DNA from: Clostridia bacterium
GTDB lineage: Bacteria; Bacillota; Clostridia; Monoglobales; Monoglobaceae
Assembly: GCA_017546205.1 (NCBI GenBank)
Contig: JAFYXJ010000006.1
Span: 1-64,000 of the forward strand
Reading direction: 5' to 3'
Length of the DNA stretch: 64,000 bases
Shown: one piece after another, positions 31,871 to 64,000 of the stretch
Numbering within the stretch: position 1 is the stretch's first letter
Layout: every line of letters begins with the position of its first letter
Made by a program: the position numbers and the translations under genes
The notes under the pieces: generated by a model
Seen by the model: the letters and a program-made list of their open reading frames with translations, nothing else
Told to the model about the DNA's origin: nothing
The model's database searches: none

Positions 31871-34092
<2,222 letters not shown>

Positions 34093-46771: not shown

Positions 46772-47151
46772 ACGGGTAGATTCCTTTTATATGTTTCAAC
46801 GGTCATGCCGGTCTCTTTTTCAAAGCAGTACGAAAGCCAGTATCGGCTGACGCCAAGATTGTCCGCAATATCAAAAGCGGTTCTGTCCTCCTCAGGGAAG
46901 GCACGCAGTTCGCTTTTGGTCAATCCAACCACCGGATAGAGTTCTTCCTCCGTTTCTTTCAGAATCAAAAACAATAGTTTCTCCACCGTCGCCCGTCGAT
47001 CAACATCACCGCTTAAACTATCAATCAGCGCATCGATCCGGTGCCCTGTCACATCTGCAATGGTTCTTTTTTCGCATCGGCACAGTTCCATGATTCGCCG
47101 TATTAACTGACCGTTTTCCAGTTGCACCAATTCTTCTAGTTTCAATGACAT
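46747..47151 (-). CDS. Stand-alone protein resembling the C-terminal module of the propeller-HTH fusions
   Basis: 134 residues. Segments RIDALIDSLSGDVDRR, AFDIADNLGVSRYWLSYCFE, KETGMTVETYKRN match the last 140 residues of the proteins at 53629 and 55165 (RLDAYFDSL, AFDVADQLGVSRYWLKYRFE). The propeller is absent and only the first AraC-type HTH is present. It probably is a DNA-binding regulator of unusual, single-HTH form. ATG at 47151 has a very close ribosome site; the TTG at 47145 is possible. Divergent from a ribbon-helix-helix gene. Confidence 0.65.
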   Translation of the reverse strand: MSLKLEELVQLENGQLIRRIMELCRCEKRTIADVTGHRIDALIDSLSGDVDRRATVEKLLFLILKETEEELYPVVGLTKSELRAFPEEDRTAFDIADNLGVSRYWLSYCFEKETGMTVETYKRNLPVEKEGFYS

Positions 47152-47470: not shown

Positions 47471-49855
47471 CTATCCAACCATAAATTCTTTTTCTTCTTT
47501 GCCGGTAAAGGCGTATTCCTGCGTTCCGTCCTGGAAGGTATAACCTTTGGGCAAAACCAATTTTCCTTCCATCCCATCCGGAACCGAAACCGTCAGCCTG
47601 ATGGCATCATCACACCGCTCCCAGTTGACCGAAATGGTACCGCCAAGGGGGGATGTATAATATCCCTTTGCGTAGTCCAACTTCTGGATAAAGCCGGGTC
47701 GAATCTCATAATATCGGATATCATCCGCGTGTGGATTGGGCTGAATACCGGTAATACTCTGGATAAACCATGCAGAGATATCACCCAAAAACGGATGGTT
47801 TCTGGAATCGCATCTTCTGGAATACGGATCGCGGAAACTCTCCCACAGGGTGGTGGCTCCCTCCTTCACCCAGTATCCGTAGCAACTGAAGGTGTCTCCG
47901 GTAATCAGTTTGTGGGCAAGGTCATGTTCTTCCATCTCCGCCAATACTCGATAGATAAACCGAAGTCCGGTTCCTCCGCAGGCATTGACATCTCCGTCCC
48001 GATGGATGATTTCCAGCAATTTTTCCTTTGCTTTGGGCATCTCTTCCTCATCAAAAATGCCAAAAGCAATACCGATGGTCTGGGATGTCTGGCAGTTCCC
48101 CTGAACCGTCATAGTCTCAAAATCCACCAGATGGGTACGGATATTCTGTCTCATAGTATCGGCAAAAGATTGCAGGAACTCTGCCCGCTCTACATCTCCG
48201 ATTTCTCCCATCAGGAATGCACCTTTTTGTGCCGCATCATAAAACGACAGAGAGGTAACAACCTCTACAGGGCATTGCGCCGCATAGTTGTTTTCCAGAC
48301 AGGAGAATGGGTCACGCCAGTCTCCCAACCCAAAATCCGTCAGCCCCTTCTCGTTGAGTCTGGGAATATAAAACCGAACCAACTTTTCCATCATTTCGGC
48401 ATTTTCCCTTATGATATCTTTGTTTCCGGTATACTGATACAGATAATACGGAAGCAAAATGGCAATCGCATCCCAGATAGGACCGGAGCCGCATCCGCCA
48501 CCGGTAGCATAGCCCCATTCTGCCGAAGGAATAATCGAAGGCATATCCCCATTGGGCTTTTGTGCCACACGGATGTTGTGCAGCCACTCTCTCAGGCTAT
48601 CTTCCACCGTCAGATTCATCAGCATATGTTCTGCAACTTCCCATGCGTCGGCTGTCCAGCCGTTCTTTTCCCGATGGGGACAATCCAACGGAAAATACTG
48701 AAAATTGGATAAATCCGAGTTTCTTGCACAGAATTGCAGTTGATTGATCACCGGGTCGGAACATGTAAAGTTTCCCCGTTCCTTTACATCGGAGTTGGTT
48801 ACCAGACAAACCACCGCATCATCGGTCGCTTGTCCCTCTTCCAGTCCCTCAACATAGGCATAACGGAAACCATCGTATTTGAATCTTGGGGTCAGGACTT
48901 CCTCGCCGCCCTTGCAGATAAACACATCGGTCTGTCCGTAATCCAGATACCATTGTGTTCTTGGGTCATGTTTTCTTAAAAAGATGGTGGTGTTCACCGA
49001 AAACTCGCCCTTGACCAGATTATCTGCATGGCGAACCACAATTTTCTGTCCCGGTTTGAAGTTACCTTTGATACGGGTAATTCCTGCCGTTCCGAACCCA
49101 AAGTCATAGACATACACATTTTCCCGTCGGGTACTCTCCAAGGGCTGAATATCATCGTCCGGATAGTCCAGCAGAGGTTCATAGTTATCATGGGCAAAAC
49201 AAAGAGAGTCGTAATGCTTGATTTTGACCGCCTTAACCTCACGGGTTACCGCCATTGGGGTTGCTTCGCAAAGTTTTGCCATGCCTGACGGGGTTTTCCC
49301 CATCATGGCGTTGTTCCACCGGCTGTCATCAAAGCCAACTTCATTCCAGCCGGGAAGTTCCAACCGTGCATCATAGCCATATCCCATCCGCATATCATTC
49401 CAAAGAACGGGGGACGGATGCGTTTTGAAGCTTTCGTCTGCTTCCAGTTCAAATTTATGTTCGCCCTGTTCTGCCTCAAGGCAAAGGGCTACCGTTACCG
49501 GGCCACGGTCAGGAATGGTATCAAATTCCCAGATAAATCCGCCATAGCAGTTGCGGAATCCGTTGCCCAGCAAAATACCAATGACATTTTCCCCCTTGTG
49601 GAGCAGGTGGGCAATGTCATACCTATCATAGTAGCAGATGTGCCCGGGATTGCTGACATAGGGCGCCAACGGGCCCTTGGTAATATCCACCCCATTGATT
49701 GAAAGTTCATAAAATCCCAGTCCGCAAATGGTGATTTCCGCCCTATCCGGCTGAAAATCCAAAGAAAATTCTTTACGGAAATAGGGTGCCGGTTCAAATC
49801 CGTCAAAACTGCACATCTTGTCATTGGCAACAATGAATTTGTTTGAAAACTTCAT
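47471..49855 (-). CDS. Alpha-L-rhamnosidase, GH78
   Basis: 794 residues. The N-terminal beta domains (ITICGLGFYELSINGVDITK, ENVIGILLGNGFRN) precede the (alpha/alpha)6 barrel with GH78 segments: CPHREKNGWTADAWEVAEHM (acidic residues), NGDMPSIIPSAEWGYATGGG, WDAIAILLPYYLYQYTGNKD, GLGDWRDPFS, then GATTLWESF and SRNHPFLGDISAWF. It removes terminal alpha-L-rhamnose. No signal peptide, so it acts on imported rhamnosyl-oligosaccharides. Last gene of the minus-strand operon; AGGTGAAG precedes the ATG. Confidence 0.92.
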   Translation of the reverse strand: MKFSNKFIVANDKMCSFDGFEPAPYFRKEFSLDFQPDRAEITICGLGFYELSINGVDITKGPLAPYVSNPGHICYYDRYDIAHLLHKGENVIGILLGNGFRNCYGGFIWEFDTIPDRGPVTVALCLEAEQGEHKFELEADESFKTHPSPVLWNDMRMGYGYDARLELPGWNEVGFDDSRWNNAMMGKTPSGMAKLCEATPMAVTREVKAVKIKHYDSLCFAHDNYEPLLDYPDDDIQPLESTRRENVYVYDFGFGTAGITRIKGNFKPGQKIVVRHADNLVKGEFSVNTTIFLRKHDPRTQWYLDYGQTDVFICKGGEEVLTPRFKYDGFRYAYVEGLEEGQATDDAVVCLVTNSDVKERGNFTCSDPVINQLQFCARNSDLSNFQYFPLDCPHREKNGWTADAWEVAEHMLMNLTVEDSLREWLHNIRVAQKPNGDMPSIIPSAEWGYATGGGCGSGPIWDAIAILLPYYLYQYTGNKDIIRENAEMMEKLVRFYIPRLNEKGLTDFGLGDWRDPFSCLENNYAAQCPVEVVTSLSFYDAAQKGAFLMGEIGDVERAEFLQSFADTMRQNIRTHLVDFETMTVQGNCQTSQTIGIAFGIFDEEEMPKAKEKLLEIIHRDGDVNACGGTGLRFIYRVLAEMEEHDLAHKLITGDTFSCYGYWVKEGATTLWESFRDPYSRRCDSRNHPFLGDISAWFIQSITGIQPNPHADDIRYYEIRPGFIQKLDYAKGYYTSPLGGTISVNWERCDDAIRLTVSVPDGMEGKLVLPKGYTFQDGTQEYAFTGKEEKEFMVG

Positions 49856-49863
49856 GTCTTCAC

Positions 49864-50547
49864 CTACTTGTTATATTTCTTATAGCCGGGGTGTTTACCG
49901 GTTACCTTGTAGTAGTTTTCACGCAAATACAAGAGTTTGTCAATCTTGTCTCTGTCGATCTCCTTGGCACCGCCCAAAAGGTGTGCGTTGAGAGAGATTT
50001 TCGCAAACAGTTCCAGACTTTCCATCCGGTAATACGCGGTAATCAAATCGCATCCTACCGACAAAGCTCCGTGGTTTTCCAGCAAAACCACGTCATGCTC
50101 CTGAAGATACGGGGCAATCGCCTCCGGCACCTCATCGGTACTGGGGGTACCGTAGGGAGTTACCGGAATGGAGCCGGTTGCAATCACAGTCTCAATCATG
50201 GAATATTCATCCAGACTGATGCCGGCGACCGCATAACCCGTTGCTGTAGGCGGATGGGCATGCACCACCGCACCTACATCTTCACGCTCTTTGTAGCAAC
50301 GAAGATGCATCTTAATCTCGCTGGAGGGTTTGTAATTCCCCTCTGCCTCCAAAACCTCTCCCTTATCGTTGATGATCACCAACTTTTCAGGGGTGATAAA
50401 ACTTTTGCTGATTCCGGTCGGGGTTGCAAGGAAATTCCCGTCCGGCAACTTCACCGTGATATTGCCGTCGTTTGCCGCAACCCATCCCAAAAGCCACATT
50501 TTATGGCATACATCGCATATTTGTTCTCGTATTTCCTGATACTTCAT
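49864..50547 (-). CDS. Class II aldolase (FucA/AraD/RhaD-type)
   Basis: 227 residues. AAN-DGNITVKLPDGNFLATPTG (phosphate and dihydroxyacetone site), KPSSEIKMHL, HAHPPTATGYAVAGISLDEY with the zinc histidines and LLENHGALSVGCDLITAYYR with the third. Cleaves a ketose or ketose-phosphate to lactaldehyde and dihydroxyacetone phosphate. Fuculose or rhamnulose-phosphate are likely given the context. ATG at 50547 follows AAGGGATAA; upstream codons are not coding. Confidence 0.85.
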   Translation of the reverse strand: MKYQEIREQICDVCHKMWLLGWVAANDGNITVKLPDGNFLATPTGISKSFITPEKLVIINDKGEVLEAEGNYKPSSEIKMHLRCYKEREDVGAVVHAHPPTATGYAVAGISLDEYSMIETVIATGSIPVTPYGTPSTDEVPEAIAPYLQEHDVVLLENHGALSVGCDLITAYYRMESLELFAKISLNAHLLGGAKEIDRDKIDKLLYLRENYYKVTGKHPGYKKYNK

Positions 50548-50551
50548 CTGT

Positions 50552-51106
50552 TTATCCCTTCGATCTGTCAAAAATTTCAGCATCCGCAAGAGGGCCGGTG
50601 GAAATCTTTCTCGGCTCTTCACACCAAACTTTGTCATTCATCATGTAATCCTCTGCTTCCCGAATCAAATCCAGAGATCCGTCGTGGAACATACCGTCAT
50701 ACTCGGTATTGAGGAAGGTCTCCAAAATATCAATGGCTTCCCATTCTCCGATGGTCTTTCCGCCCATACAGAGAATATTGGCATCGTTATGGCGTCTGGT
50801 CATTCTTGCAAGATAGGTACTGTGCACCAGTGCAGCGCGGACACCTCTGAATTTATTTGCTGCAATGCTGATGCCGATACCGGATCCGCAAATCAGCAAA
50901 CCGCATCTTGCTTCACCGCTTGCAACAGCCTTTGCCACCTTTGCAGCAAAGAACGGGTATCTGGTTGCCTCAATGTCCGGATCATCCTCGCTTCCGCAAT
51001 CTACGTAGGGAATCCCTTTTCCCTCCAAATATTCAATACATTTGGTCTTCAAATAATATCCGGCAGTATCATTGCCGATGTAAACTTTCTTTTCCATGTT
51101 ATGCAA
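50552..51106 (-). CDS. RpiB/LacAB family sugar-phosphate isomerase
   Basis: 184 residues. IGNDTAGYYLKTKCIEYLEG, DCGSEDDPDIEATRYPFFA, CGLLICGSGIGISIAANKFR (catalytic cysteine), GVRAALVHSTYLARMTRRHN, DANILCMGG. The family interconverts aldose and ketose phosphates. Here it lies between FucU and a class II aldolase with no FucI/RhaA or kinase in view, suggesting a role in 6-deoxysugar use. The ATG at 51106 overlaps the fucU stop region by 8 bp; the ATG at 51097 is possible. Extra 30-residue C-terminal tail. Confidence 0.85.
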   Translation of the reverse strand: MHNMEKKVYIGNDTAGYYLKTKCIEYLEGKGIPYVDCGSEDDPDIEATRYPFFAAKVAKAVASGEARCGLLICGSGIGISIAANKFRGVRAALVHSTYLARMTRRHNDANILCMGGKTIGEWEAIDILETFLNTEYDGMFHDGSLDLIREAEDYMMNDKVWCEEPRKISTGPLADAEIFDRSKG

Positions 51107-51518
51107 TAACCCCTTTCTTTAAGATAATACAACCGTACAGTGCTGTCTCTCCGGTCATAACTACGGCGTATGCCTTCTTTGCCTTTTCATAAAAGGCATA
51201 TCGTTCCACCTGTTCAATCTTAGCGTCGGTATGCTTTGCCAGAATTTCATCAAAGGTGTCCCAGATTGGTGTTTCCACCGTATCTCCGGGAATCTTCTGG
51301 ATAATAAACGCCGGCTGAGCATAGGTGTCCAGAGGCATCAGCGTCAAAATTGCCTCCATAAGTTCCGGCACACCGTGTCCGTCACAGCGAACACAACGCT
51401 CATTCATGCTTTGTCCGGGGAAGTTGCCGTCACCAATAACGATTTCGTCCCCGTGTCCCATCTCTGCCAGAATCTTTAACAACTCCGGCGAAAGAATACT
51501 TGGAATTCCCTTTAACAT
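51099..51518 (-). CDS. fucU: FucU/RbsD family sugar mutarotase
   Basis: 139 residues. MLKGIPSILSPELLKILAEM, GHGDEIVIGDGNFPGQSMNE with catalytic His and Asp, DGHGVPELMEAILTLMPLDT. This fits L-fucose mutarotase more than RbsD in length and in the SPELLKILAEMGHGDEI start. It interconverts anomers of L-fucose or related 6-deoxysugars. Overlaps its neighbours on both sides (7-8 bp), tightly coupled. Confidence 0.88.
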   Translation of the reverse strand: MLKGIPSILSPELLKILAEMGHGDEIVIGDGNFPGQSMNERCVRCDGHGVPELMEAILTLMPLDTYAQPAFIIQKIPGDTVETPIWDTFDEILAKHTDAKIEQVERYAFYEKAKKAYAVVMTGETALYGCIILKKGVIA

Positions 51519-52360
51519 TTCTTTCCCTCTCCTTTTATTGATGTAATTTCAAACCATTTTTTCAATTGATCCATCCAGTCACCGCCATAGGCTTTCATGG
51601 GGTCTAAATCATTGCAGGTAAGGCAATCAAGTGTAGAAAGCCCATGTTCTCCGGCGGGGTAAATGTGCATGGTGTAAGGGATCTTGTTCCGACTCAGGGC
51701 TGTTGCATACCGGAGACTGTTTTCCACAAACACACATTGATCCTCTGCCGTGTGCCAGATAAAGGTAGGGGGTGTTTTGGAGCTTACCAGATACTCGCAG
51801 GAATATTTCTTACCCTCCTCGCCCTCTGGGTGGTGTCCCAACAGTTGTTCAAAGGAGTCGGTGTTGAGAATAGACAAATCCGCAGAAATCACCGGATAGC
51901 CCAGAACCGCTGTTGCAGGACGGTAGGTCTCCTTAAAATATTGCTTGATTTCCTCTCCGTCATAACAACACGAGTAGTTTGCCGCCAGATGACCGCCGGC
52001 AGAAAATCCCATAATGCCCACTTTATCAGGGTTTACATCCCATTCCTCGTGATGTTGGTGAATCAACGAGAACAGGGCGGCTACCTCAAGCAGTTGGATG
52101 GGGTATCTGAGCGGTGCACAAGAATAGGTGAGCACAAAAACCTGAAATCCCATAGCCAGAAGACGAACCGCAACCGGCTCCGCCTCACGCTTCGCACATT
52201 TGGCATAACCGCTTCCCGGACAGACAACCATACCCGGCTTGGGATAAGATTCATACATCTCCATTTCGGTTTCCTGACTGTAAACCTCTACCGTTGCCAC
52301 AGAACCCATCTCTTTCAAAAACGGAAACCGGTCTGCTAACTGAAACTTTTCATACAACAT
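51512..52360 (-). CDS. Acetyl esterase-like alpha/beta hydrolase
   Basis: 282 residues of the BD-FAE/Axe-like type. GMVVCPGSGYAKCAKREAEP is the first conserved strand with the family's unusual oxyanion segment, GIMGFSAGGHLAANYSC holds the nucleophile, FIWHTAEDQCVFVEN the acid and YPAGEHGLSTLD the histidine. It probably removes acetyl groups from pectic or xylan oligosaccharides in the cytoplasm. 10 bp after the GH28-like gene. Confidence 0.85.
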   Translation of the reverse strand: MLYEKFQLADRFPFLKEMGSVATVEVYSQETEMEMYESYPKPGMVVCPGSGYAKCAKREAEPVAVRLLAMGFQVFVLTYSCAPLRYPIQLLEVAALFSLIHQHHEEWDVNPDKVGIMGFSAGGHLAANYSCCYDGEEIKQYFKETYRPATAVLGYPVISADLSILNTDSFEQLLGHHPEGEEGKKYSCEYLVSSKTPPTFIWHTAEDQCVFVENSLRYATALSRNKIPYTMHIYPAGEHGLSTLDCLTCNDLDPMKAYGGDWMDQLKKWFEITSIKGEGKKC

Positions 52361-52370
52361 AACAATCCCT

Positions 52371-53540
52371 CTATTCTATGATGGTTTTTTCAATACTGCC
52401 CTCGCCGGTAATCAAATCCTCATCATAGTCGATGTTTCTCATATACAACGTGCCGATTTTACCCGCATTGTTCAGAATAGACATTCTCTCGTCGGTGTGA
52501 TTCTCCTGAGAAACATCTGCAACCGACAGTCTCTCAATCTCGGTATCTTCCCAGATGTCAATCAGGGGGATGGAGGTAATTTCCTCAATCCGGTGAATAT
52601 CCCGAATGGTCAGGTGTTTAATCCGAAGTCTCTTATCAATAAAGAGGGGTGCAAACACCACCGTACCATCCTTTTGGTAAATGGTATGACGTTCTGCCTT
52701 GGAGGCATACACATTGTCTATCGTGATATTATCATAAATGCCGTAATCCTTTTCATAGAAGAAACAGGTAACGCCCACACAATACTGGAAGTAAGTGCCA
52801 AACACATTGGTAATATGTATATTCTTTACCTCTGCACCGGCAGACAACACTCTGACCGCACTGTGACAGTCATCCGCAAAGATACCATCCACCACAATAT
52901 CGGAGATGGGGCCATCCAGAAAGTCATCTGCATTGATTGCTACCAAATCGTCGTAGCAAGTACCTTTCAGGTTGCGGATCACGCCGAACTTACATCCGCC
53001 GTCCAAGTGGATACCGTCCATATTGATGGGGAAGGGATTGCCCATGTTAAAGTCAAAGGTAATATCCTCCACCGTAAACTGGGTAACAAATGCAATCTGG
53101 ATACAGAAGGTCACCGGATCTTTCAGGGTCAAATCCCGAATGGTCAGGTTTTTCATGTAGGAAAACCGCATCATTACGCCCAGATACTCATCGCCGTAAT
53201 CCGGATGACGGGTGTTGTTGACCACACCGGTAATGGATCCGGTAGCAAGGGGATTGGCTTTCTGGTTCAGATTGTTAAAATCCCAGATACCGCCAATGAC
53301 GGTTACATTTTCAATGTCTTGTTCTGCATTCATGAGCATAATGCAGTCGCTGTGGTCTGCCAGTTTGATTCTGGTGTAAGGGTCCAGTTTCAGAGTTTGA
53401 TTCCCGTGAATTTTCAGGGGAACATCAATCAGATATTCCTTTTCCGGCTCCGGCAGGTACACCAACCGTGCACCGGAATCCAGCATTTCCTGAATTGCTT
53501 TGGCATCGCTGTGGATACCGTCTCCGTATAATGTTGCCAT
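52371..53540 (-). CDS. GH28-like right-handed beta-helix protein
   Basis: 389 residues. Short repeated strands (NLTIRDLTLKDPVTFCIQIA, DGPISDIVVDGIFADDCHSA, EVKNIHITNVFGTYFQYCVG, NITIDNVYASKAERHTIYQK) give a parallel beta-helix. Acidic residues in INMDGIHLDGGC and VAINADDFLDG correspond loosely to the GH28 N-x-D and D-D motifs, but the G-H-G and R-x-K signatures are not obvious. A polygalacturonase-type or epimerase-like role is likely; specificity is unknown. No signal peptide. ATG at 53540 follows AAGGAGGG. Confidence 0.7.
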   Translation of the reverse strand: MATLYGDGIHSDAKAIQEMLDSGARLVYLPEPEKEYLIDVPLKIHGNQTLKLDPYTRIKLADHSDCIMLMNAEQDIENVTVIGGIWDFNNLNQKANPLATGSITGVVNNTRHPDYGDEYLGVMMRFSYMKNLTIRDLTLKDPVTFCIQIAFVTQFTVEDITFDFNMGNPFPINMDGIHLDGGCKFGVIRNLKGTCYDDLVAINADDFLDGPISDIVVDGIFADDCHSAVRVLSAGAEVKNIHITNVFGTYFQYCVGVTCFFYEKDYGIYDNITIDNVYASKAERHTIYQKDGTVVFAPLFIDKRLRIKHLTIRDIHRIEEITSIPLIDIWEDTEIERLSVADVSQENHTDERMSILNNAGKIGTLYMRNIDYDEDLITGEGSIEKTIIE

Positions 53541-53628
53541 AGATTTTCCCTCCTTGCAAAAAAACATCATATATTCCAGATGATATCACGAACAATATGG
53601 AAATACAATGTTTTTTTACGACATAATT

Positions 53629-55155
53629 TTATTTATTTAAGCTCCGCAAAGTATTTTGATATGCTTCTACTGAAATGTTGGTGGCTTTCTCAAACCGATA
53701 CTTGAGCCAATACCGGCTGACGCCCAGCTGATCTGCCACATCAAATGCGGTCATATCGGTATCAAGGTTTTTCAAAAGAACATCCCGCACCGGTTCCACA
53801 ACTGAATATTCCTCATACCGTGTTTCATAATCAATCAGCGTAGTGAGTTGATGCAAGGTCTCGTACCGGTCACCACAGGTGGGCAGGGAATCAAAATATG
53901 CGTCCAACCGCTTGCCTTCCTCACCGCCAATCACCCGTTCCCAACCGTGATACCAATGGAGAATTCTTTGGGGAAGTTCCTCATCGGGGAACTGAATAAA
54001 GTAATCCGCCAACTCATTCTGACGAATGGGATGCGCAAAGAGATTGTCTTCTCCCTTATACTCACCAAGGGCACACATTACCTGTTTCATTTTGCTGTCG
54101 GGGTTCACCAGTTTTCCGGCGATAATATCTTCCTCGGTGATTTTGGCATACAAAATCTCTCTTGCTTCAGCGCACGCATCCGCCAGACTCTTCTTTCCGC
54201 ATCCCCGTTCTCTGTCATAAGTGATGTAGAGGAATCCGTCCTCTGCCTCCACTCCATCGGGATAAGATACCTGATCCCGCTCATCCAACAAAAGTTTATA
54301 GGGCCATGTCTTACCCTCGTCCTCGGACAGCATAGCGGTCAGGTGGTCACGGTTTATGTATTCGTAATGGTTCACCAGAAGCCATCTTCCGCTCTTCAGT
54401 TTGCGGACAAACACTCTGGAGTTGGGGCCGCCCAATCCGGTGTCCACGCCTTCAGTCCAGGTCACACCTCTGTCATAGGAATAGGCAACGCCCACGCCAT
54501 GCATAATTCTGGAATACATCACAAGGGTGCCATCCTCTTTTTCCAGTACCATATGTTCATCATAGGCATGGTCAGGGTTATACATTCCGCCCAGACGTTC
54601 AAAGGTTTTTCCCTGATCGGCTGTGCGGTACACAAATGCACCAAGTTGCTTCTGGGTGGTTCTTCTGCACGGCATCCAAGACCACACTCTCTCACCCCAG
54701 ACGGAAATCGGCAACAACCACTCTCCGGTAGAAAGCACCGTAGGTTTGTTGAGCATGATATCGTAGCCTATGAAAATTTCTTCACTCCATACCAGTTCCT
54801 CTGCGTCAGGATCCTCGCAGTAAACCGCGTAAGTGCCGTGATTGTCTCCTGTCTTGCTGTCGTAGTCCGGATACACCGCCCAGAACAGCCACAGCCGTCC
54901 CAACGGGTCAATCCAGATACACTCATCAAAGCATCTGGCGTTCTTTTTGTATGCTACTGCAACGGGTTCTGAAAAGTTCACCCCGTCATCGGATTGTATC
55001 AGAACCACATAGTTCTCCAAGGTCTCGGTCACATCACCGGAATAAAATGCAGAGAAAATTCTCCCCTTTTTGGTAACCTCAATACTGGGGATTCCTTGCC
55101 AGATCCGATAGTCCTTGTAATACTGTTTCAGTTGTTCTTTGTCCGTAATTAACAT
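53629..55155 (-). CDS. Sialidase-like propeller fused to single AraC-type HTH (copy 1)
   Basis: 508 residues. Residues 1-365 are a sialidase-fold propeller with Asp-box sequences (SDDGVNF, TADQGKTFERLG, SYDRGVTWTEG, SEDEGKTWPY). The usual RIP arginine is missing: the first strand reads RIWQGIPSIEVTKKGR, so glycine takes its place. After a helical linker, residues about 450-505 are one AraC-type HTH (AFDVADQLGVSRYWLKYRFE, KATNISVEAYQ); the second HTH is absent. No signal peptide. I infer a ligand-sensing cytoplasmic regulator; enzymatic activity is uncertain. Confidence 0.75.
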   Translation of the reverse strand: MLITDKEQLKQYYKDYRIWQGIPSIEVTKKGRIFSAFYSGDVTETLENYVVLIQSDDGVNFSEPVAVAYKKNARCFDECIWIDPLGRLWLFWAVYPDYDSKTGDNHGTYAVYCEDPDAEELVWSEEIFIGYDIMLNKPTVLSTGEWLLPISVWGERVWSWMPCRRTTQKQLGAFVYRTADQGKTFERLGGMYNPDHAYDEHMVLEKEDGTLVMYSRIMHGVGVAYSYDRGVTWTEGVDTGLGGPNSRVFVRKLKSGRWLLVNHYEYINRDHLTAMLSEDEGKTWPYKLLLDERDQVSYPDGVEAEDGFLYITYDRERGCGKKSLADACAEAREILYAKITEEDIIAGKLVNPDSKMKQVMCALGEYKGEDNLFAHPIRQNELADYFIQFPDEELPQRILHWYHGWERVIGGEEGKRLDAYFDSLPTCGDRYETLHQLTTLIDYETRYEEYSVVEPVRDVLLKNLDTDMTAFDVADQLGVSRYWLKYRFEKATNISVEAYQNTLRSLNK

Positions 55156-55164
55156 GTCAATTCC

Positions 55165-56691
55165 TCACTCATGTATGTATAATTTTGTTTTTCTCAAAGT
55201 TTGTTGGTATGTTTCTACCGAAATTCCGGTCTCTCTTTCAAAGCAAAACTTTAGCCAATGTCGGCTGACGCCCAGAATGTCAGCAACCATATCGGCATCC
55301 ATCTCTGTATCCGGTTGTTGCAACAACACTTGCTGAACCTTTTCCACCACCGGATATCGTTCCGGTATGGCCTCATAGGATAACAAGGTCAACACCCTGC
55401 GGAACACCTCAATCCGGTTATCCGGTGTTATCCCATCCAGAAGTGCATCAGCCTGTTCCCCTGTCTGACCGGAAAGGGTCTTTTCCCAACTCCGATACCG
55501 TGTGAACAGCGTTTCTATGGCAACAGAATCTTCAAACTGTATCAGATATTCGGCAATTTCCTGTTCCCTGACAGGGTGTTCAAAGGGATTTTCATCCCCT
55601 GTATATTCCCCAAGCCGACTGATCACCTGCATCTGTTTGCTCTTGGGGTTTTTCACTTCTCCTGCCATAATATCTTCCTCGGTGACCTTGGCATACAAGA
55701 CCTCTCTTGCATGACGGTAAACGGCATCCATGGACTTTTGTCCACCGCCCCGTTCCCGGTCATAGGTGATATAGAGAAATCCATCCTCTGCTTCCACCGC
55801 ATCCGGATAGGAAACCTGATCCCGATCTTCCACCACCAGACTGTAAGGCCATGTTTTTCCCTCGTCTTCAGACAGATAGGCAACCAGTTTGTTTCTGTTG
55901 GTGTTTTCCGGATGGTTCACCAAAAGCCAACGTCCGCTTTTCAGTTTGCGGATATGGAATCTGGAATTGGGTCCCCCCAGTCCACTGTCGATGCCCTGTG
56001 ACCAAGTTTTCCCCCGATCGTAGGAATACGCAACGCCAATGCCGTGCATAATCCGGCTGTAAAGAGCCAATGTCCCATCCTGACATTCCACAAACATATG
56101 CTCATCATAGCAATGGTCAGGATGTATCATCCCTCCCAGACGCTCAAAGGTTTTCCCCCCGTCTGTTGTCCGGTAAGCAAACGCGCCTGCCTCGGCTTGT
56201 TTGGTCCGGCGCTCCGGCATTCTGGTTTCCCAGATTGCCTCGCCCCATACCGAAACGGGGAACAGCCATTCTCCGGTAGAAAGCACCGTTGGCTTGTTCA
56301 TCATCACATCATAGCCAATCAGGAATTCTTCACCCCAGACCAGCCGTTCTGCATCGGGATTGTCGCAAATTGCAGCATAAACCCCGTAATTCCCAAAGGC
56401 GGTGTACTTTGCCCAAATCAACCAAAGTCTGTCCATGGGATCAATCCAAACACAGCCGTCAAAGCATCTGGCGTTTTCCTCAAAGGCAACCGCCACAGGC
56501 TCGCCAAAGGCAACCCCATCGTCCGAGTAAACCAAAGCAACAAAATTTTTCCCCAAATCCTCCTCAATACCACCGGAGTAAAAACAGGAAAAAACTCTTC
56601 CCTTTTTGGTTACTTCAATCCCCGGAACTCCTTGCCAGAGTCGAAAAGGAGCCTGATATTTCTTTAGCTGTTCTTTTTCTGTTATCAGCAT
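55165..56691 (-). CDS. Sialidase-like propeller fused to single AraC-type HTH (copy 2)
   Basis: 508 residues, same design as copy 1 and next to it (9 bp apart). Propeller start RLWQGVPGIEVTKKGRVFSC, again without the RIP arginine; Asp boxes SDDGVAF, TTDGGKTFERLG, SYDRGKTWSQG, SEDEGKTWPY. The YPDAVEAEDGFLYITYDRER block is shared with the other copies. C-terminal MVADILGVSRHWLKFCFERE, TGISVETYQQTL is the single HTH. The ATG at 56691 is preferred; the GTG three codons upstream overlaps the AGGGGTGA site. Tandem duplication of copy 1 is evident. Confidence 0.75.
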   Translation of the reverse strand: MLITEKEQLKKYQAPFRLWQGVPGIEVTKKGRVFSCFYSGGIEEDLGKNFVALVYSDDGVAFGEPVAVAFEENARCFDGCVWIDPMDRLWLIWAKYTAFGNYGVYAAICDNPDAERLVWGEEFLIGYDVMMNKPTVLSTGEWLFPVSVWGEAIWETRMPERRTKQAEAGAFAYRTTDGGKTFERLGGMIHPDHCYDEHMFVECQDGTLALYSRIMHGIGVAYSYDRGKTWSQGIDSGLGGPNSRFHIRKLKSGRWLLVNHPENTNRNKLVAYLSEDEGKTWPYSLVVEDRDQVSYPDAVEAEDGFLYITYDRERGGGQKSMDAVYRHAREVLYAKVTEEDIMAGEVKNPKSKQMQVISRLGEYTGDENPFEHPVREQEIAEYLIQFEDSVAIETLFTRYRSWEKTLSGQTGEQADALLDGITPDNRIEVFRRVLTLLSYEAIPERYPVVEKVQQVLLQQPDTEMDADMVADILGVSRHWLKFCFERETGISVETYQQTLRKTKLYIHE

Positions 56692-56741
56692 TTCTTTCAC
56701 CCCTAAGCCACAAGAGACCCCAAAAGAATCTATTGTGGCTT

Positions 56742-56764
56742 AGGGGCAGACAAAGTCTGCCCCT
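56742..56764 (-). terminator. Hairpin after the solute-binding protein gene
   Basis: AGGGGCAGAC, AAA, GTCTGCCCCT, a 10 bp perfect stem just after the stop codon at 56776. It is joined to a larger imperfect repeat (TAAGCCACAA / TTGTGGCTTA, 56703-56742). No long T run follows, so it may only attenuate, letting the downstream fusion genes be read at lower level. Confidence 0.6.
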
Positions 56765-56775
56765 AATAAAGCCGA

Positions 56776-58179
56776 TTAATAATCGGTGTTATCCAGATAG
56801 TTAGACTGGAAGTCAGCATTTGCTTTCTTCAGCAGTTCTGCACAGTCTGCATCTTTGTTTGCAAACAGTTCCTGAATGCAAGCACCCAGAGTCTCGTAAA
56901 GTTCCTGACAGTTGATGGGCTCTTCTGCCTGAATCTCTGCAGGACAGTCAGCAACATACTCGTTGTACAGTCTTACGAAGTTGGGGTTGGTGTTGCAGTT
57001 AGCATCAATCAGAGCATGCTCAAACTTGTATGCCTCGGAATCAGATTTCCACATGTTGATTTCTTTTGCACCGATCTGGCGGTTGATTTCTTTGTAGTTT
57101 TCAATCTCCAGTTCTTTGGTGGTCTTGAATTCCTCTGTTGCATTGAAGTTAACAGAAGTTTCCAACCAACGGATACCTGCTTCAATCTGGTCAGCAGTTG
57201 CGTTGGGGTTGATACACCATACTTCACCGGTAATCTGAGTTACGTTTCTTGCGGGACCTGCAGGCATAGGAATCATACCAAACTGCATGGGGGTCATTCC
57301 GCGTTTTACAACGCTGGTGGTAACCATGCTGGGTGCACCAAAGGTCATAGCAGCATTACCTGCGCCAAAGATTTCCCACCATTGCTCACCGTCAACCAAA
57401 CTGTTGGGAGGTACAACATCGTGTTCCCATCTCAGGTCTTTGATCCACTGCATTGCAGCAACTGCCTCAGGGCTGTCAAAGGTTGCAATCCATTTGCCGT
57501 TTTCGTCTTTGTGCATGAACTCAACGCCAAAACTCCATCCCAGAATGGTGAAGAACCAGCCGCCATGCTTGGAGGTGGGCAGTACAAATCCGGGTTTGCC
57601 GGTCTTTTCTTTGATCAGTTTTGCAACTTCAACCAACTCATCCCATGTTGCGGGAGCCTTGGGAGTGCCGTCTGCTTCCATCAGACCTGCAGCCTGGAAA
57701 AGTTCAGTATTGTATGTAAGACCCAGAACAGCTGCGCTCTTGGGAAGTGCGTACAATTTGCCGTTTCTCTCCAGTGCTTCCCTTACGGTGGGGTTCATCA
57801 TGTCGTAGATACCACGCTCTTTTACAACGTCAGTCAAATCAGCAGAAAGTTCAGAGTTGATAATCTCACTGATTTCGGTATAGCCTGCCTGATATACACC
57901 GGGAAGCTGTCCGCCTGCTGCCTTTGCGTAGAAAGTTTTTCTGTCAAACTTCCACAGGTCAGGTACGATTTCGATATCGGGGTTTGCCGCATCAAAGTCT
58001 GCTTTTCTCTTGTTCATGTTGTCAAGTTCTGTACCCTCTTTTGCCGGCCATCCGCCAACAGTGATTACAGTCTGACCTTTGTCGTTCTTGTCACTTTTGT
58101 TTACACCACATCCTGCCAGCATAGAAACTGTCAGAACCAGTGCGAGCATCAGTGCCACTGCCTTAAACATTTTTTTCAT
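56776..58179 (-). CDS. Sugar ABC transporter solute-binding lipoprotein (family 1)
   Basis: 467 residues. Signal peptide II MKKMFKAVALMLALVLTVSM with lipobox LAGC (cysteine about residue 24). The mature part follows the family 1 pattern: ADFDAANPDIEIVPDLWKFD, KNGK-like GKLYALPKSAAVLGLTYNTE, LFQAAGLMEADGTPKAPATW, WDELVEVAKLIKEKTGKPGF. Binds oligosaccharides at the outer membrane face of the cytoplasmic membrane. No permease gene lies beside it; they are outside the window or elsewhere. Confidence 0.92.
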   Translation of the reverse strand: MKKMFKAVALMLALVLTVSMLAGCGVNKSDKNDKGQTVITVGGWPAKEGTELDNMNKRKADFDAANPDIEIVPDLWKFDRKTFYAKAAGGQLPGVYQAGYTEISEIINSELSADLTDVVKERGIYDMMNPTVREALERNGKLYALPKSAAVLGLTYNTELFQAAGLMEADGTPKAPATWDELVEVAKLIKEKTGKPGFVLPTSKHGGWFFTILGWSFGVEFMHKDENGKWIATFDSPEAVAAMQWIKDLRWEHDVVPPNSLVDGEQWWEIFGAGNAAMTFGAPSMVTTSVVKRGMTPMQFGMIPMPAGPARNVTQITGEVWCINPNATADQIEAGIRWLETSVNFNATEEFKTTKELEIENYKEINRQIGAKEINMWKSDSEAYKFEHALIDANCNTNPNFVRLYNEYVADCPAEIQAEEPINCQELYETLGACIQELFANKDADCAELLKKANADFQSNYLDNTDY

Positions 58180-58215
58180 TTTTCTTCTCTCCTTTTTGGA
58201 AAATATTTATATTTT

Positions 58216-58773
58216 TTATTTTTTCAAAATATTTTTTACGGATTGAGCAACCAGTTCTGCACAGAAAACCTCGCCTTCTTCAGTCAGGTGATGCAAATCT
58301 TCCGGGCTGATATACTGCTCCATATTGTTATACAAGGGCGTATACAGGTCGTTAATCACAATTCCTTCTTTGACCAGCACTTCGCAAATGGCCTTGTTGT
58401 ATTTCTCAATGTTCTCATTGCAAAGCATCCAGAAATACGGCGGTCTGGTGGGTGTGGTGGTTGCAAAAATAACATTGGGCGTATAAGATTTCAAAATTCT
58501 TGCAATACGCACCATGCATTTACAATAATCCTCAACCTCCGTAAAAGGTCCGTCACCCAAATCGTTGATGTTCCAAAGACCGTTGTTCCAATGAATCACA
58601 TCACATTCTTTCAGCCAGTCTTTGTAATCATACAACACATCTCTCAGGGTTTTGAAGCAGGTCTGTCCGTTTTCTTCTCCCTGCAAAACCTCATACCCAT
58701 CACCGAGGGCCTCCTGAACCTTCTTGCCATATCCTTTCCGGATAGAATCACCCAATAAACCAATCTTCTTCAT
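58216..58773 (-). CDS. SGNH/GDSL hydrolase
   Basis: 185 residues. Block I GLLGDSIRKGYG (nucleophile serine), block II glycine in NGQTCFKTL-like region, block III IHWNNGLWNIND and block V PEDLHHLTEEG with catalytic Asp-His pair. Typical of carbohydrate acetyl-esterases that deacetylate xylan or pectin oligosaccharides. Cytoplasmic. ATG at 58773 follows AGGGAGAA. Confidence 0.82.
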   Translation of the reverse strand: MKKIGLLGDSIRKGYGKKVQEALGDGYEVLQGEENGQTCFKTLRDVLYDYKDWLKECDVIHWNNGLWNINDLGDGPFTEVEDYCKCMVRIARILKSYTPNVIFATTTPTRPPYFWMLCNENIEKYNKAICEVLVKEGIVINDLYTPLYNNMEQYISPEDLHHLTEEGEVFCAELVAQSVKNILKK

Positions 58774-58805
58774 GTCACATTCTCCCTTTTGGAAAATCAT
58801 ATATT

Positions 58806-60476
58806 TTATTTATTTATTTTTAACAATGTCCGATATTCCGAGGGAGAAATACTTTCCACCTCGAAAAAGATTTTAGAAAAATAACTGGCGCTGCCAAATC
58901 CGCACTCATAGGCAATTTCGGCAATCCGTTTTTCGGTATGAATCAACAGATTCTTTGCTTTGGTGATCTTTAATTCATTTTTGTAATCGGTAATGGTCAA
59001 TCCGGTGGTCTTTTTGAAGAGGTGGAGCATGTAATATCGGCTGATGCCCACCCGTTCTGCAATGTAGTCCACCGTCAAATCCTCCGTAATATTCTCTTGA
59101 ATGATGCTTTTGACCTTTTCAATGATAGGTACATCCTGTACCGAAGCATCATCCACCGAACGAATCAAATCAATAATCCGCAGGATATGCTTTTCTTTGT
59201 TCTCCGGTTCAGAATCCAGTTTTTCAATCAAGGAATCCAGTTTGGTGTTATCCACCTTGTGCATATTCATACAGTTGACCTGATAACATTCAAACAGGGC
59301 TGTCAAAACCTCATCCCCCGTTTTGTCCAGCAAACTTTTAATCAGTTCGCTTTCGGAAAGACGGGTAATTTCATGGAAGGGATTTCGGTCTTCCAATGCA
59401 TATTGTTCCAGTTTGGAAACCACCCGTTTCAGGTAACTTCCCTTGTCTTGAACCACACCGCGGATGATGTCATCTTCGGTGATTTTTGCCATCAGCACTT
59501 CCCGTGCGGAACTGTATACCTCATACAAGGAATTGGAGAAGGACCCCCGCTCTCTGTCATAGACAATATGGATATATCCATCCTCTGCCTCCACCGCATC
59601 CGGATAGGATACGCTGGCTCTTTCATCCAGAAGCAAACTGTATTTCCATGTGACGCCCTCATCCTCAGACAGCATCGCGGTCAGATTGTCTCTTTCATTG
59701 GTGTCCTTATGATTGATTAACAGAATTCTGCCGGATTTCAACCGACGGATGAAGAATCTGGAACTGGGGCTCTTGATACCGCTGTCCGTTCCGTGGGTCC
59801 AGGTTTTACCACGGTCGTAGGAATGGGCAACCCCGATTCCGTAACTGGTTCTGACATACATGTTCAGGTATTCATCCTTCATTTCCAGAAGCATGTGTTC
59901 ATCCAAGGTTCGGTGTGTAACATCTGCGCCGCCGATTTTTACAAAAGTTTTTCCTTGATCAATGGTCTTGTAAACAAAGGCTTTTCGCTCATTCTCCGGA
60001 ACCGTGGATTGGATGCCCAGCGACCGCGGTTCTTTTTTCCAGACCGCAATAGGGAACATCCATTCACCGGTAGAAAGGACAATGGGTTTATTCATCATTA
60101 CACCGGTTCCAATCTTAAAGGGCTTACCGAATTTCATTTTAGGTCCGTCCGGATCCTTGCAGATACTTGCCCAGACACTATGTTCCGGTGCACAAGACCA
60201 GATAAACCAGAGTCGGTTTAACGGGTCAATCCACAAACAAGGGTCGTAACAACGATACCCCTCCTGATAGGCAACCAACATGGGTGTATCGCCAAACTCT
60301 TTGCCATCATCTGCCCGAAACAGCATGGCATAGTTTCCAATTCCCTCACTGACACCGCCGGAATAAAAGGCAAGGAACTGTCGTCCTCCCTTCGTAACTT
60401 CAATCGCCGGAATCCCCTGCCACAAGCGGTAGGGCGCACTGTATTTTTCCAGTTCGGCTTTGCCGGTAATCAGCAT
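58806..60476 (-). CDS. Sialidase-like propeller fused to full AraC domain (copy 3)
   Basis: 556 residues. Propeller as in copies 1 and 2 (RLWQGIPAIEVTKGGRQFLA, then SYDRGKTWTHG, SEDEGVTWKY, and YPDAVEAEDGYIHIVYDRER), again with GIP in place of RIP. Here the C-terminus is a complete two-HTH AraC domain (LTVDYIAERVGISRYYMLHL, RIAEIAYECGFGSASYFSKI, ISPSEYRTLL). It is thus the intact form from which the truncated copies may derive. ATG at 60476 is preferred over the GTG inside the GGAGGTGA site. Confidence 0.78.
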   Translation of the reverse strand: MLITGKAELEKYSAPYRLWQGIPAIEVTKGGRQFLAFYSGGVSEGIGNYAMLFRADDGKEFGDTPMLVAYQEGYRCYDPCLWIDPLNRLWFIWSCAPEHSVWASICKDPDGPKMKFGKPFKIGTGVMMNKPIVLSTGEWMFPIAVWKKEPRSLGIQSTVPENERKAFVYKTIDQGKTFVKIGGADVTHRTLDEHMLLEMKDEYLNMYVRTSYGIGVAHSYDRGKTWTHGTDSGIKSPSSRFFIRRLKSGRILLINHKDTNERDNLTAMLSEDEGVTWKYSLLLDERASVSYPDAVEAEDGYIHIVYDRERGSFSNSLYEVYSSAREVLMAKITEDDIIRGVVQDKGSYLKRVVSKLEQYALEDRNPFHEITRLSESELIKSLLDKTGDEVLTALFECYQVNCMNMHKVDNTKLDSLIEKLDSEPENKEKHILRIIDLIRSVDDASVQDVPIIEKVKSIIQENITEDLTVDYIAERVGISRYYMLHLFKKTTGLTITDYKNELKITKAKNLLIHTEKRIAEIAYECGFGSASYFSKIFFEVESISPSEYRTLLKINK

Positions 60477-60500
60477 ATTTTTCACCTCCGGTATGCCATC

Positions 60501-60538: not shown

Positions 60539-63500
60539 TTAAATATCAAATGTTACAAAAATCGGTCTTAAAGGAAGCAGCGTGTAACTTCCCTGAATCT
60601 CTTCCATGCTACGCATTTCGGTAAAGGTTGCAATCTCCTTGCCCTTATACATGAGTTTCACCGGAATTCTGTTATCGTTGTCAAAACTGGTGATGGAGGC
60701 AACAATTTTGCCCTCATACTCGGTATAGGACCATTCTACATTGTCTACTCTCTCGCCGGTTTCAGCGTGAACCAGTACCAAATCGTTATAGCCCATCTCC
60801 TCAATCTTCTCGGTGACGGTGGAGGTGGTATCTGCATGAGCATAGATATAATCGATGGTTGCCTGATCGTGAGGTCTGTTGTACTCATCTTTCAAGATAC
60901 AGTTTTCACCCACAAGCAGAACTTTACCGCCATTTTCAATGTAGGTCTTTAAGTTATCTACAAAGTCTTTCTTCACATTGGTTGCCTGAGGCACAATCAC
61001 AAGACCGTACTTGTGCATATCCTCCGGCGCACTATCTGCCAGGAATCCTACTCTCTGTCCGCTGTAAACGGCATCTTCATACGCAGATGCAGTCATGAAC
61101 ACATAGTCATCGTGGTAGGTGGTTGCGATTCTGGAATAGAGAATACCAACCTTTCTCTCCTGTTTCTGGATTGCCGCAATCTCTTTGGAGAGGCGGTTTA
61201 CATCCAAGGTTACCTTTGCAGATTCCCACATTCTTAAAGGTTTGTGCATTGCATTGGAAGACGCTACGCTGGCTGATGCACCATACCAAGGCATAACCGT
61301 CACATCGGTTTCCATCCACCACATTGCAGAGAATCCAAGACCTCTCAGACAGCAGTTCCAAAGGTCTGCAGAAGAGAAGTAAGGCTCAATTGCCGGATAA
61401 CTGGGCGGATTGCCGTCGCCGGCGTTGTGGTCCTCTGTATTCCATACAGGTTTGTCGGAAATAGAGGTCAGCATATCATGCCATGCCAGTTTGTCAATAA
61501 TTCTGTTACCGCCGGGGTTGGACCATGCGTCACAACCGTTCACGTCCTCAACCGGCATCAAAAGTTCCGGATTGGTACCCATGGTATAATATCTTGCCCA
61601 GAGCCCGTCTCTGAAATACTGCATCATCTTACTGTGGAGGAACAATTTGGGGTTTTCCGGTTTGATTGCTGCAATCAATGCCTCGTGATAATCTAAGAGC
61701 AGTCCATCGTTAAAGTCACGGTAATCGGTATAAATTGCCGTTTTAACAGGACCGGTGGGCATCTTTACTTCCTCAAAACTCTTGTAGGAACTGCCATAGG
61801 TCGCATTCAGGTTATCAATAGAATTGTCATAACGCTCCTTCAAAAATGCCTGCCAGTGAGGGATATAATAATGTCCCTGGGAGGCGTAAACCTTCGGCTC
61901 GTTGGCAATACACATAGATACCGGCGCCTTGCTTTCCTTGGCAAGGGCTGCAACCAACTTCCCAAAGAATGCCAGAGAGTCAATAATCGTCTGATTATCC
62001 AACGGAACATCAGTAAAGTGCTCGGTTCTGCCTGCTTCCCAGACTGCCGGGTCATGGTACTTCATAAAGTCCGGCATATCGTTAACACCTACGATCAAGT
62101 CATAGGTAACGTTGTACTGTTCTGCCAGACGGAAGGTTTTACGGAGTTTATCTACCCATTGATAATTGTAGTACCAACCGTACTTTTCAATCATCTCTTT
62201 CTCGCTGGGGATGACTTCGCTCTCCTTGGGATAATACTCAAAGTCAGAGTTGTAAATCAGGTTTTTGTCAGTCCCCTTTTCTCTGACATAAATATCATCG
62301 ATGTAGAGTTCATCAATCTTATCCTGCAGACAGAACAAGAATTCCAGAGATTCCTCACCGGGTTTGGTGGTATAGGTAAAGTTGTAGTCCGTCCAGTCTT
62401 TGGTATTATTAATAGCATACCGCAAACCGCTGTAAATACCATTTAAGTTAAACCATGCAGAGGCAATACCGTTTGCCTGTGCCTGCTCGGTCATACCGGA
62501 ACCTTTTGCTTTAAGTCCAAACTCATAGGTGGTATTGGGTTTTGCGTCAAAACGCTGACCCAAGGTTACATAGGTGTTGTGTCTTGCTTTCTGGGGATTT
62601 ACAACCTTCAAAGAGTGGGTTCCGCTATATGCATCTTCGGTGGTGGTTCCCCATACAACCTCCGCAAGGCCGTTCTCCTTACGTCCGCCGGTGGACCAAC
62701 CGCCGCCGCGAACGGGAGAGATAAAGTCATATATTGCAGTTTTGGTCTGAATTGCTGATGCACCGATGGTGGCAAAATGCTCCATGAAACTGGGGCCGTT
62801 CTGCCATGTACAGTAACCAATCAAAAATACCGGCTTTTCTTCTTCAACGCCGTCGGTTACGGTGTTGGCAATGACAGACATACCATCAAGTTTGATTTCG
62901 CCGGTCAGAAACTTGCTGGCATGGCGTTCTGTCTTGGTGCCTGCCAGATATCCCTCAAGGTTTGCTTTACATTCATCGTAAATCTGTTTCAGTTCCTTTT
63001 CGTACTGGAACACACGGGCATAGTCGTTGTTGTTCATCTCGTACTGGGTACGCTCAATAAACTTTTCAATGATAGAGTGTCCTGCTCGTTCGTAGGTTAC
63101 CTCAATGCCCTGATCCTGACACCGGTAAATCAAGGCACTCAAATCATCCGCATATCCCTGCAATTTTGCTACAACTTCATCAAAGTTTTCGGGGGTACGG
63201 ATAACCTCAACTGCGACCATGTTTTCCTGATTCATCTTTTCTCCGCCAACCTGAAGGCTTGTATTGATATACAAATCCTCTGTCTTCTTCACAGTAACGG
63301 GAATCTGAATCTGTTGTTTTTCTCCGGCTTTCAGGGTCACCGATTTCTTGTAGGAAAGTTCGGGGATGGTAATATCCACCGTTTTGGACTCCTTGCCAGG
63401 GTTTCTCAGGTTCACCTCATGGATACGGGTGGTACCATAGTCCATGGTCAGGGGTGATACGATACCGTATTCCACACCCTCAAACGGTGTCCAGAGTACA

Positions 63501-64000
63501 AGGGGATTGTATTTGAAGGCATTTTTACCTCCGGTAACGATACCGGGGGTAATGGAATACGCACTGTCGTGGAATCCCTGACCTACACCGCCGATGTTAT
63601 TATTATATGCCACATTGAAAAGGAGGGACTTGGGAGCAATACCGCTGAAGTTCACACTCCAGGGATATGCCACCTCATAGATACTCTTGTTGCCCTCACG
63701 CTTCATAGAAATCCGGTAATCGGAACTGGACTGATAGGTGCCGCTTCCGTCATGATACAAAACCGCACCTTTCTCTACTCTGGAACCACCGGGATTTCCA
63801 ACCGTTGCTGTGGCAAACTGGATACCGTCATTATTCCAGAAGGACGGGTCGGGAAGCGCAAAGTAGGTGGTGTCATTGATCTCCAGATAGAAATATAGGT
63901 TTTCATCATCAAATCCAAACTTCACCTCACCGCCGGTAACATCACCGGTGGGTTTACAGTTGCCGAAAATCTCCTGAACCGCAACCGGGAAAGGCTCCAC
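60539..64000 (-). CDS. Beta-galactosidase-like glycosidase (GH42 type) with CBM9-like module, 5' end cut off
   Basis: 1153 residues visible; the start lies beyond the right edge. The early part is a CBM9-like domain (DDENLYFYLEINDTTYFALP, FWNNDGIQFA), then Ig-like beta regions, a helical segment, a CBM4-like module (TYEFGLKAKGSGMTEQAQAN, YIDDIYVREK) and a TIM barrel with acid/base glutamate in SMCIANEPKVYAS and nucleophile glutamate in PVWNTEDHNAGDG, then a Rossmann-like trimerisation-type domain. GH42 is my best assignment. No signal visible because the N-terminus is missing. Confidence 0.75.
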   Translation of the reverse strand: MEPFPVAVQEIFGNCKPTGDVTGGEVKFGFDDENLYFYLEINDTTYFALPDPSFWNNDGIQFATATVGNPGGSRVEKGAVLYHDGSGTYQSSSDYRISMKREGNKSIYEVAYPWSVNFSGIAPKSLLFNVAYNNNIGGVGQGFHDSAYSITPGIVTGGKNAFKYNPLVLWTPFEGVEYGIVSPLTMDYGTTRIHEVNLRNPGKESKTVDITIPELSYKKSVTLKAGEKQQIQIPVTVKKTEDLYINTSLQVGGEKMNQENMVAVEVIRTPENFDEVVAKLQGYADDLSALIYRCQDQGIEVTYERAGHSIIEKFIERTQYEMNNNDYARVFQYEKELKQIYDECKANLEGYLAGTKTERHASKFLTGEIKLDGMSVIANTVTDGVEEEKPVFLIGYCTWQNGPSFMEHFATIGASAIQTKTAIYDFISPVRGGGWSTGGRKENGLAEVVWGTTTEDAYSGTHSLKVVNPQKARHNTYVTLGQRFDAKPNTTYEFGLKAKGSGMTEQAQANGIASAWFNLNGIYSGLRYAINNTKDWTDYNFTYTTKPGEESLEFLFCLQDKIDELYIDDIYVREKGTDKNLIYNSDFEYYPKESEVIPSEKEMIEKYGWYYNYQWVDKLRKTFRLAEQYNVTYDLIVGVNDMPDFMKYHDPAVWEAGRTEHFTDVPLDNQTIIDSLAFFGKLVAALAKESKAPVSMCIANEPKVYASQGHYYIPHWQAFLKERYDNSIDNLNATYGSSYKSFEEVKMPTGPVKTAIYTDYRDFNDGLLLDYHEALIAAIKPENPKLFLHSKMMQYFRDGLWARYYTMGTNPELLMPVEDVNGCDAWSNPGGNRIIDKLAWHDMLTSISDKPVWNTEDHNAGDGNPPSYPAIEPYFSSADLWNCCLRGLGFSAMWWMETDVTVMPWYGASASVASSNAMHKPLRMWESAKVTLDVNRLSKEIAAIQKQERKVGILYSRIATTYHDDYVFMTASAYEDAVYSGQRVGFLADSAPEDMHKYGLVIVPQATNVKKDFVDNLKTYIENGGKVLLVGENCILKDEYNRPHDQATIDYIYAHADTTSTVTEKIEEMGYNDLVLVHAETGERVDNVEWSYTEYEGKIVASITSFDNDNRIPVKLMYKGKEIATFTEMRSMEEIQGSYTLLPLRPIFVTFDI

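Follow-up and report, generated by a model that had tools for sequence, protein, structure and literature searches.

Cytoplasmic fusions of a sialidase-fold propeller to an AraC-type domain in gut Clostridia look like self-regulating sugar sensors

In the transcriptional regulators FtrA and GbdR, AraC domains are joined to enzyme-derived sensors of the GATase1/DJ-1-like kind; Ada, similarly, is an enzyme with an AraC-type domain; and the output domain of the hybrid two-component systems of Bacteroidetes is also AraC-type. In these hybrid systems, propeller-fold sensing is joined to transcription output in response to plant cell wall glycans (PMC3243724). Here we describe a locus in which a sialidase-fold propeller and an AraC-type domain are part of the same protein, an architecture on which we found nothing in the open-access literature.

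The window, i.e., the whole stretch of DNA that was analyzed, corresponds to positions 1-64,000 of contig C27 from a 1.48-Mb genome assembly (G000) that is 74% complete. A first-pass annotation had recognized in it three copies of a propeller joined to an AraC-type HTH, a description that is upheld by Pfam, AlphaFold and Foldseek. Not included in that annotation were an orphan gene in the window and two more fusions elsewhere in the genome, on contigs C13 and C20, which bring the propeller-HTH fusion genes of G000 to five. The relevant features of the window are:

58806..60485, minus strand: copy 3, propeller, helical linker and full AraC domain, 559 aa (Pfam, AlphaFold, Foldseek)
59451..60476, minus strand: propeller of copy 3, about aa 4-345 (conservation and alignment)
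59136..59408, minus strand: helical linker of copy 3, about aa 360-450 (sequence and AlphaFold model)
58818..59126, minus strand: AraC domain of copy 3, two HTHs, about aa 454-556 (Pfam and AlphaFold model)
55165..56700, minus strand: copy 2, propeller, linker and HTH1 only, 511 aa (BNR_2, E = 2e-22)
53629..55155, minus strand: copy 1, propeller, linker and HTH1 only, 508 aa (BNR_2, E = 1e-24)
46747..47151, minus strand: orphan, linker and HTH1 with no propeller, same type as copies 1 and 2, 134 aa

Copies 1 and 2 share 62% identity, while copy 3 is 43-45% identical to either. For copy 3, the open-reading-frame call places the start at a GTG at 60485; because the proteins of this family usually begin with MLIT..., we place it at the ATG at 60476, in agreement with the first-pass annotation. 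Pfam matches in this protein comprise BNR_2 (1.8e-26), HTH_18 (1.6e-21) and two HTH_AraC stretches. The AlphaFold model (pLDDT 92.5) consists of the propeller, the helical linker and seven AraC helices, and its best PDB matches by Foldseek are GH33 sialidases (1.9e-15). The domain of about 100 residues with two HTHs that characterizes AraC/XylS proteins is thus present in copy 3 and missing from copies 1 and 2, as Pfam and alignment confirm for what had been proposed. The linker of copy 3 recurs in the orphan and in a permuted protein on contig C25. As to the four Asp boxes previously reported, three are clear (T-x-D-x-G-K-T-F, S-Y-D-R-G-x-T-W and S-E-D-E-G-x-T-W), but the fourth is degenerate (S/A-D-D-G-x-x-F). 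No signal peptide is visible at the N-termini of the three copies, and the natural reading, also that of the first-pass annotation, is therefore that they reside in the cytoplasm.

From the architecture, the fold, the site residues, a motif at a fixed distance from the promoter and the position of this motif before fusion operons, all of them computational results, we arrive at a model for copy 3 that we regard as probable on the whole: it would be a one-component, probably autoregulatory activator of the AraC type with a sialidase-fold sensor. In this model, the sensor is a six-bladed propeller that retains a glycosidase-like site, to which a sugar ligand would bind in the cytoplasm; because this site is rich in invariant arginines, the ligand is probably anionic. 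The helical linker would relay the ligand-induced change to the AraC domain, which in turn would bind a 15-bp site, AGCAATTTTGTTATA, sometimes present as tandem direct repeats, in place of the -35 box. A protein of the copy 3 type would thereby activate its own gene along with the surrounding long operon for glycan use. What we infer is binding of the motif by the fusion protein itself, activation as opposed to repression, and control by a ligand.

Conservation of the propeller site was assessed in an alignment of 94 propellers from fusion, stand-alone and secreted proteins, numbered here as in copy 3. Nine residues are invariant in 94/94, namely Glu196, Arg212, Arg243, Arg265, Arg289, Tyr294, Asp296, Asp310 and Arg313; E47, N51, R78 and D81 are also among the conserved residues of the copy 3 propeller. 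In a profile alignment, E196, R212, R265 and Y294 fall on the catalytic Glu, Arg2, Arg3 and nucleophile Tyr of sialidases, whose role in catalysis is well established. The fusion propellers thus have in common with GH33 sialidases (e.g., the M. viridifaciens sialidase, NanI and BTSA) both the six-bladed Asp-box propeller fold and these four positions. They differ from those enzymes in being intracellular, at a sequence identity of about 15-20%, in having Gly where the RIP motif supplies the triad with its first Arg, and in that the acid/base Asp has no clear aligned counterpart. Specifically, the RIP motif reads G-I-P or G-V-P in copies 1-3 (G24 in copy 3), with the Gly opposite NanI Arg266, while NanI Asp291 falls just behind a gapped stretch, two residues from a conserved Glu (E47). 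The replacement of this Arg in all three copies had been correctly noted. It had also been taken to mark the conversion of an enzyme to a sensor, which does not hold: the RIP position is Gly in 91/94 propellers, including stand-alone and secreted ones, and L, M or a gap in the rest, with Arg in 0. Since the loss is shared by the whole family, it cannot tell a regulator from an enzyme, and we rejected it as a hallmark of regulators. On sequence grounds, the propeller family would not be filed as sialidases, given that the triad lacks its first Arg; an automatic pipeline would probably label its members exo-alpha-sialidase.

The same residues raise the possibility that the fusion is a trigger enzyme, i.e., that the propeller has remained functional as a glycosidase and that its occupancy by substrate sets transcription. 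This reading overlaps with the model above, the sole difference being retained catalysis. Consistent with it, Glu, Arg2, Arg3 and Tyr are invariant in 46/46 fusions and are the same in stand-alone and secreted relatives, and some stand-alone cytoplasmic relatives are placed between genes for a 2-keto-3-deoxy acid kinase and an aldolase, as would be expected of an enzyme. However, the RIP Arg is gone, the acid/base Asp has no clear aligned counterpart, none of the family members identified in this work has an established activity, and the conserved residues may serve binding only. We regard retained catalysis as conceivable, though with the balance tilted against it.

The sensor-activator model for copy 3 is strengthened by a predicted operator. 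Upstream of the fusion gene on contig C20 and of its orthologue in the congeneric genome G020, the motif AGCACTTTTGTTATA is found as a tandem direct repeat with a period of 32 bp; the upstream similarity of this pair is confined to the last ~190 bp, with the repeat at its beginning. A seed motif derived from the pair only was tested on the 400 bp upstream of 43 other fusions, and was found in 10, 15 and 22 of them at ≤1, ≤2 and ≤3 mismatches, respectively, counts that include related species and are thus not fully independent samples. The corresponding numbers are 0, 1 and 1 for 39 propeller-only genes, and on average 0, 0.017 and 0.8 for 60 permuted motifs. The final form of the motif has N at position 5, an adjustment made after several loci had been seen, of which the seed-only test is independent. 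The consensus of 28 anchored sites is AGCAATTTTGTTATA(G/T) behind an A-run. A TATAAT-like box, which played no part in the anchoring, begins 36 bp downstream of the motif start in 14/28 sites at ≤1 mismatch and in 20/28 at ≤2; at any other offset, the numbers are at most 7/28 and 11/28. The predicted site therefore coincides with the -35 position, as would be expected of an activator of the AraC type, and the arrangement typical of AraC/XylS proteins, an operator near -35 and often direct repeats, is seen here at the level of sequence. When direct repeats were sought generically ahead of all fusions, most of the pairs obtained were at chance level, yet the search hinted at a TTTTGTTAT core.

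About half of the fusions have no clear site within 400 bp. Nevertheless, with the motif present ahead of roughly one in two fusions but almost absent ahead of propeller-only genes, regulation by proteins of the copy 3 type is supported; the notion put forward earlier, that a glycosidase-fold sensor controls a glycan operon, accordingly finds support for this type, with its motif and operon setting, and none for copies 1 and 2. A motif upstream of a gene is a correlation, and does not prove that the gene product binds there; the site could instead serve another regulator of the same operons. We consider this improbable, as the motif precedes the fusion gene itself across many lineages, related operator-like sites are found at the corresponding position, -62 to -70, of permuted AraC-propeller genes, and propeller-only genes in comparable operons nearly lack it. 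As a separate observation, the motif AGCACTTTTGTCATA is found about 280 bp upstream of a gene for an msmX/ugpC-like ABC ATPase in G020 (L155, C24:16554). We rejected msmX/ugpC as a firm target, since no such site was recovered near the orthologue in G000; an automatic check of the region upstream of that orthologue found no anchor.

In the G000 genome, five sites match the motif near-exactly, and 3/5 precede gene runs that bear fusions: two lie before the C20 fusion and one, at C27:84649 on the minus strand, is that of the gene run in the window:

C27:84649-84663, minus strand: predicted operator AGCAATTTTGTTGTA, motif match, outside the 64-kb window
60539..64000, minus strand: start of the upstream run, large secreted CBM/GH42M/SLH proteins, continuing to C27:84493
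58216..58800, minus strand: GDSL-like protein, directly downstream of copy 3 (Lipase_GDSL_2 2e-4, under the curated cut-off)
56776..58179, minus strand: lipoprotein sugar-binding (solute-binding) protein of an ABC transporter (SBP_bac_1 5e-23)
47471..53570, minus strand: genes downstream of copy 1, for a GH28-like protein, an alpha/beta hydrolase, a FucU-like mutarotase, an RpiB-like isomerase, a class II aldolase and a GH78-type rhamnosidase

The predicted operator is located about 156 bp ahead of the first gene of a same-strand run of ~37 kb, which extends from C27:84493 to 47471 through copies 3, 2 and 1 with no gap above about 160 bp. Directly upstream of copy 3 there is no motif, and the only predicted site of its run is 24 kb away; that the run is one continuous operon across copy 3 is what the spacing suggests. 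The GDSL-like and solute-binding genes, both inside 53629-60476, stand outside the fusion architecture. Elsewhere in the window, at 10410-12125 and 27749-28987, are phage portal-like and capsid-like genes (Pfam P22_portal and Phage_capsid) that adjoin the dnaN/recF/gyrB region (29645-34092) and look like a prophage.

At other loci, fusions are found in glycan and sugar-acid operons. The commonest recurrent neighbor is a KDPG/KHG aldolase, at 12/78 loci versus 0.73 expected from the measured density of such aldolases (P about 2e-11); it directly follows five fusions, with a spacing of 0-28 bp. KDPG aldolase is part of the 2-keto-3-deoxy acid pathway, and 2-keto-3-deoxy acid kinases recur near family loci as well. 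This association is limited to part of the loci, and the window's own cluster lacks a KDPG aldolase. The neighborhoods are more suggestive of pectin-type sugars and 2-keto-3-deoxy sugar acids than of xyloglucan, which the first-pass annotation had named as a candidate together with rhamnogalacturonan, and our best guess for the ligand, a tentative one, is a 2-keto-3-deoxy sugar acid or a related product of pectin. Rhamnogalacturonan II, with Kdo and Dha, was set aside as a substrate, having been suggested by analogy only.

The gene directly behind the fusion at five loci (L052, L053, L056, L057 and L062) encodes a secreted protein whose propeller is homologous; those delimited are:

L052:2574-7688: secreted protein of about 1700 aa, with a GH51-like arabinofuranosidase domain and a dockerin match
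L057:7586-12694: secreted protein of about 1700 aa
L053:2523-4664: secreted protein with a dockerin match
L056:7665-9953: secreted protein

One could picture the fusions as bifunctional enzyme-regulators, i.e., active sialidase-fold glycosidases of new specificity that control their own operon through the AraC domain, with the secreted relatives acting on the same linkage extracellularly; this specificity would be for glycosides of 2-keto-3-deoxy sugar acids, e.g., from pectin. We find this doubtful.

The sensor-activator model does not extend to copies 1 and 2. In copy 1, Pfam yields a single weak HTH_AraC match (4e-4, under the curated cut-off), and the AlphaFold model (pLDDT 90.6) has one complete HTH; in copy 2 there is no HTH match in Pfam, although the protein aligns to the HTH of copy 1. 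Because copy 1 begins 9 bp downstream, copy 2 has no room for HTH2, and no remnant of HTH2 follows the stop codon in any of the truncated genes, i.e., copies 1 and 2, those on C13 and in G020, and the orphan. In the recognition helix of HTH1, the truncated copies have W, Y/F and E in place of the family residues Tyr485, His488 and Lys491, and no predicted operator was found upstream of copies 1 and 2. Nonetheless, dN/dS of HTH1 is about 0.11 between copy 1 and its C13 paralogue. The truncated copies are maintained, although they are probably unable to bind the family operator on their own. Copies 1 and 2 are derived paralogues with one remodelled HTH and are probably not independent regulators that bind DNA; they may be partner or decoy subunits. 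The earlier attribution of transcription control to copies 1 and 2 thus loses its footing, with HTH2 gone and Tyr485, His488 and Lys491 lost from HTH1.

One HTH might suffice, as in Rob, in which the base contacts are made by one HTH, and copies 1 and 2 would then be ordinary DNA-binding regulators. The confident model of HTH1 in copy 1 and its purifying selection are in line with this idea, which we hold to be unlikely in view of the loss of the three conserved recognition-helix residues and the absence of an upstream operator. Another proposal is that the fusions are mainly cytoplasmic enzymes and that the AraC part is vestigial or an oligomerization aid. HTH2 is indeed missing from copies 1 and 2, from the C13 fusion and from one copy in G020, and numerous close relatives lack an HTH altogether. 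Most fusions, however, retain a complete AraC domain, which proved to be under purifying selection wherever this was assessed. The operator-like motif, moreover, goes with the fusions and not with propeller-only genes. We deem this proposal very unlikely.

Within the same family, clear relatives are found in a single genome, the congeneric G020; across the class, the propeller is detected at 1e-60 in 15/391 genomes, and the full fusion in about seven of these. The first-pass annotation had proposed a database search for the architecture, and a wider scan, with one genome per species, returned at least 244 encoded relatives. About half of the best 80 of these 244 loci are fusions, all from Clostridia-type MAGs and mostly from ruminant gut, while the propeller-only members of this set extend to records from Paenibacillus, Petroclostridium, Spirochaetes and Omnitrophota. 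In all there are about 45 homologous fusions in separate species, and the fusion is therefore not an assembly artefact. No relatives were found on viral contigs or plasmids. In a propeller tree, fusions are interleaved with propeller-only proteins and the fusion label changes 14 times, which fits either one origin with repeated loss or several fusions. Relatives of permuted order, in which the AraC domain precedes a different BNR_2 propeller, are encoded in G000 (C25:25083-26786, equivalent to L023:7083-8786) and at L061:7910-9583 and L056:2228-3901; proteins of 930 aa combine the normal and the permuted order in one propeller-AraC-propeller chain (L051:5983-8775 and L098:5989-8781). At L099:6004-7739, the fusion gene appears as two overlapping ORFs, by frameshift or assembly error, and a separate propeller-only clade (L104, L105, L108, L110, L111 and L112) adjoins a conserved amidohydrolase-like gene of about 468 aa, which makes for a different setting.

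Taken together, gut Clostridia possess a family of cytoplasmic regulators, so far little known, whose members appear to sense sugars and to regulate their own genes. If this is true, a glycosidase-fold sensor is added to the AraC family along with a predicted DNA site, which opens regulator, operon and ligand to direct testing. It would also provide a way to study how uncultured Clostridia of the hindgut perceive sugars from plant cell walls intracellularly, and what role a large sialidase-like family has.

Among known systems, the AraC/XylS one-component regulators (AraC, RhaS, MelR and ChbR) have the same C-terminal two-HTH domain as copy 3, and their -35 operators, some of them tandem direct repeats, and sugar-operon setting are matched here by prediction. 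The sensor, in contrast, is a sialidase-fold propeller rather than a cupin-type AraC_binding domain, and in copies 1 and 2 the second HTH is absent. The Bacteroidetes hybrid systems are histidine kinases that reside in the membrane and whose Reg_prop propellers are 7-bladed, whereas the fusions are soluble, and Pfam finds no histidine kinase or receiver domains in them. With FtrA, GbdR and Ada, lastly, they share the use of an enzyme fold as the sensor of an AraC-type regulator, but differ in the fold and in the class of ligand.
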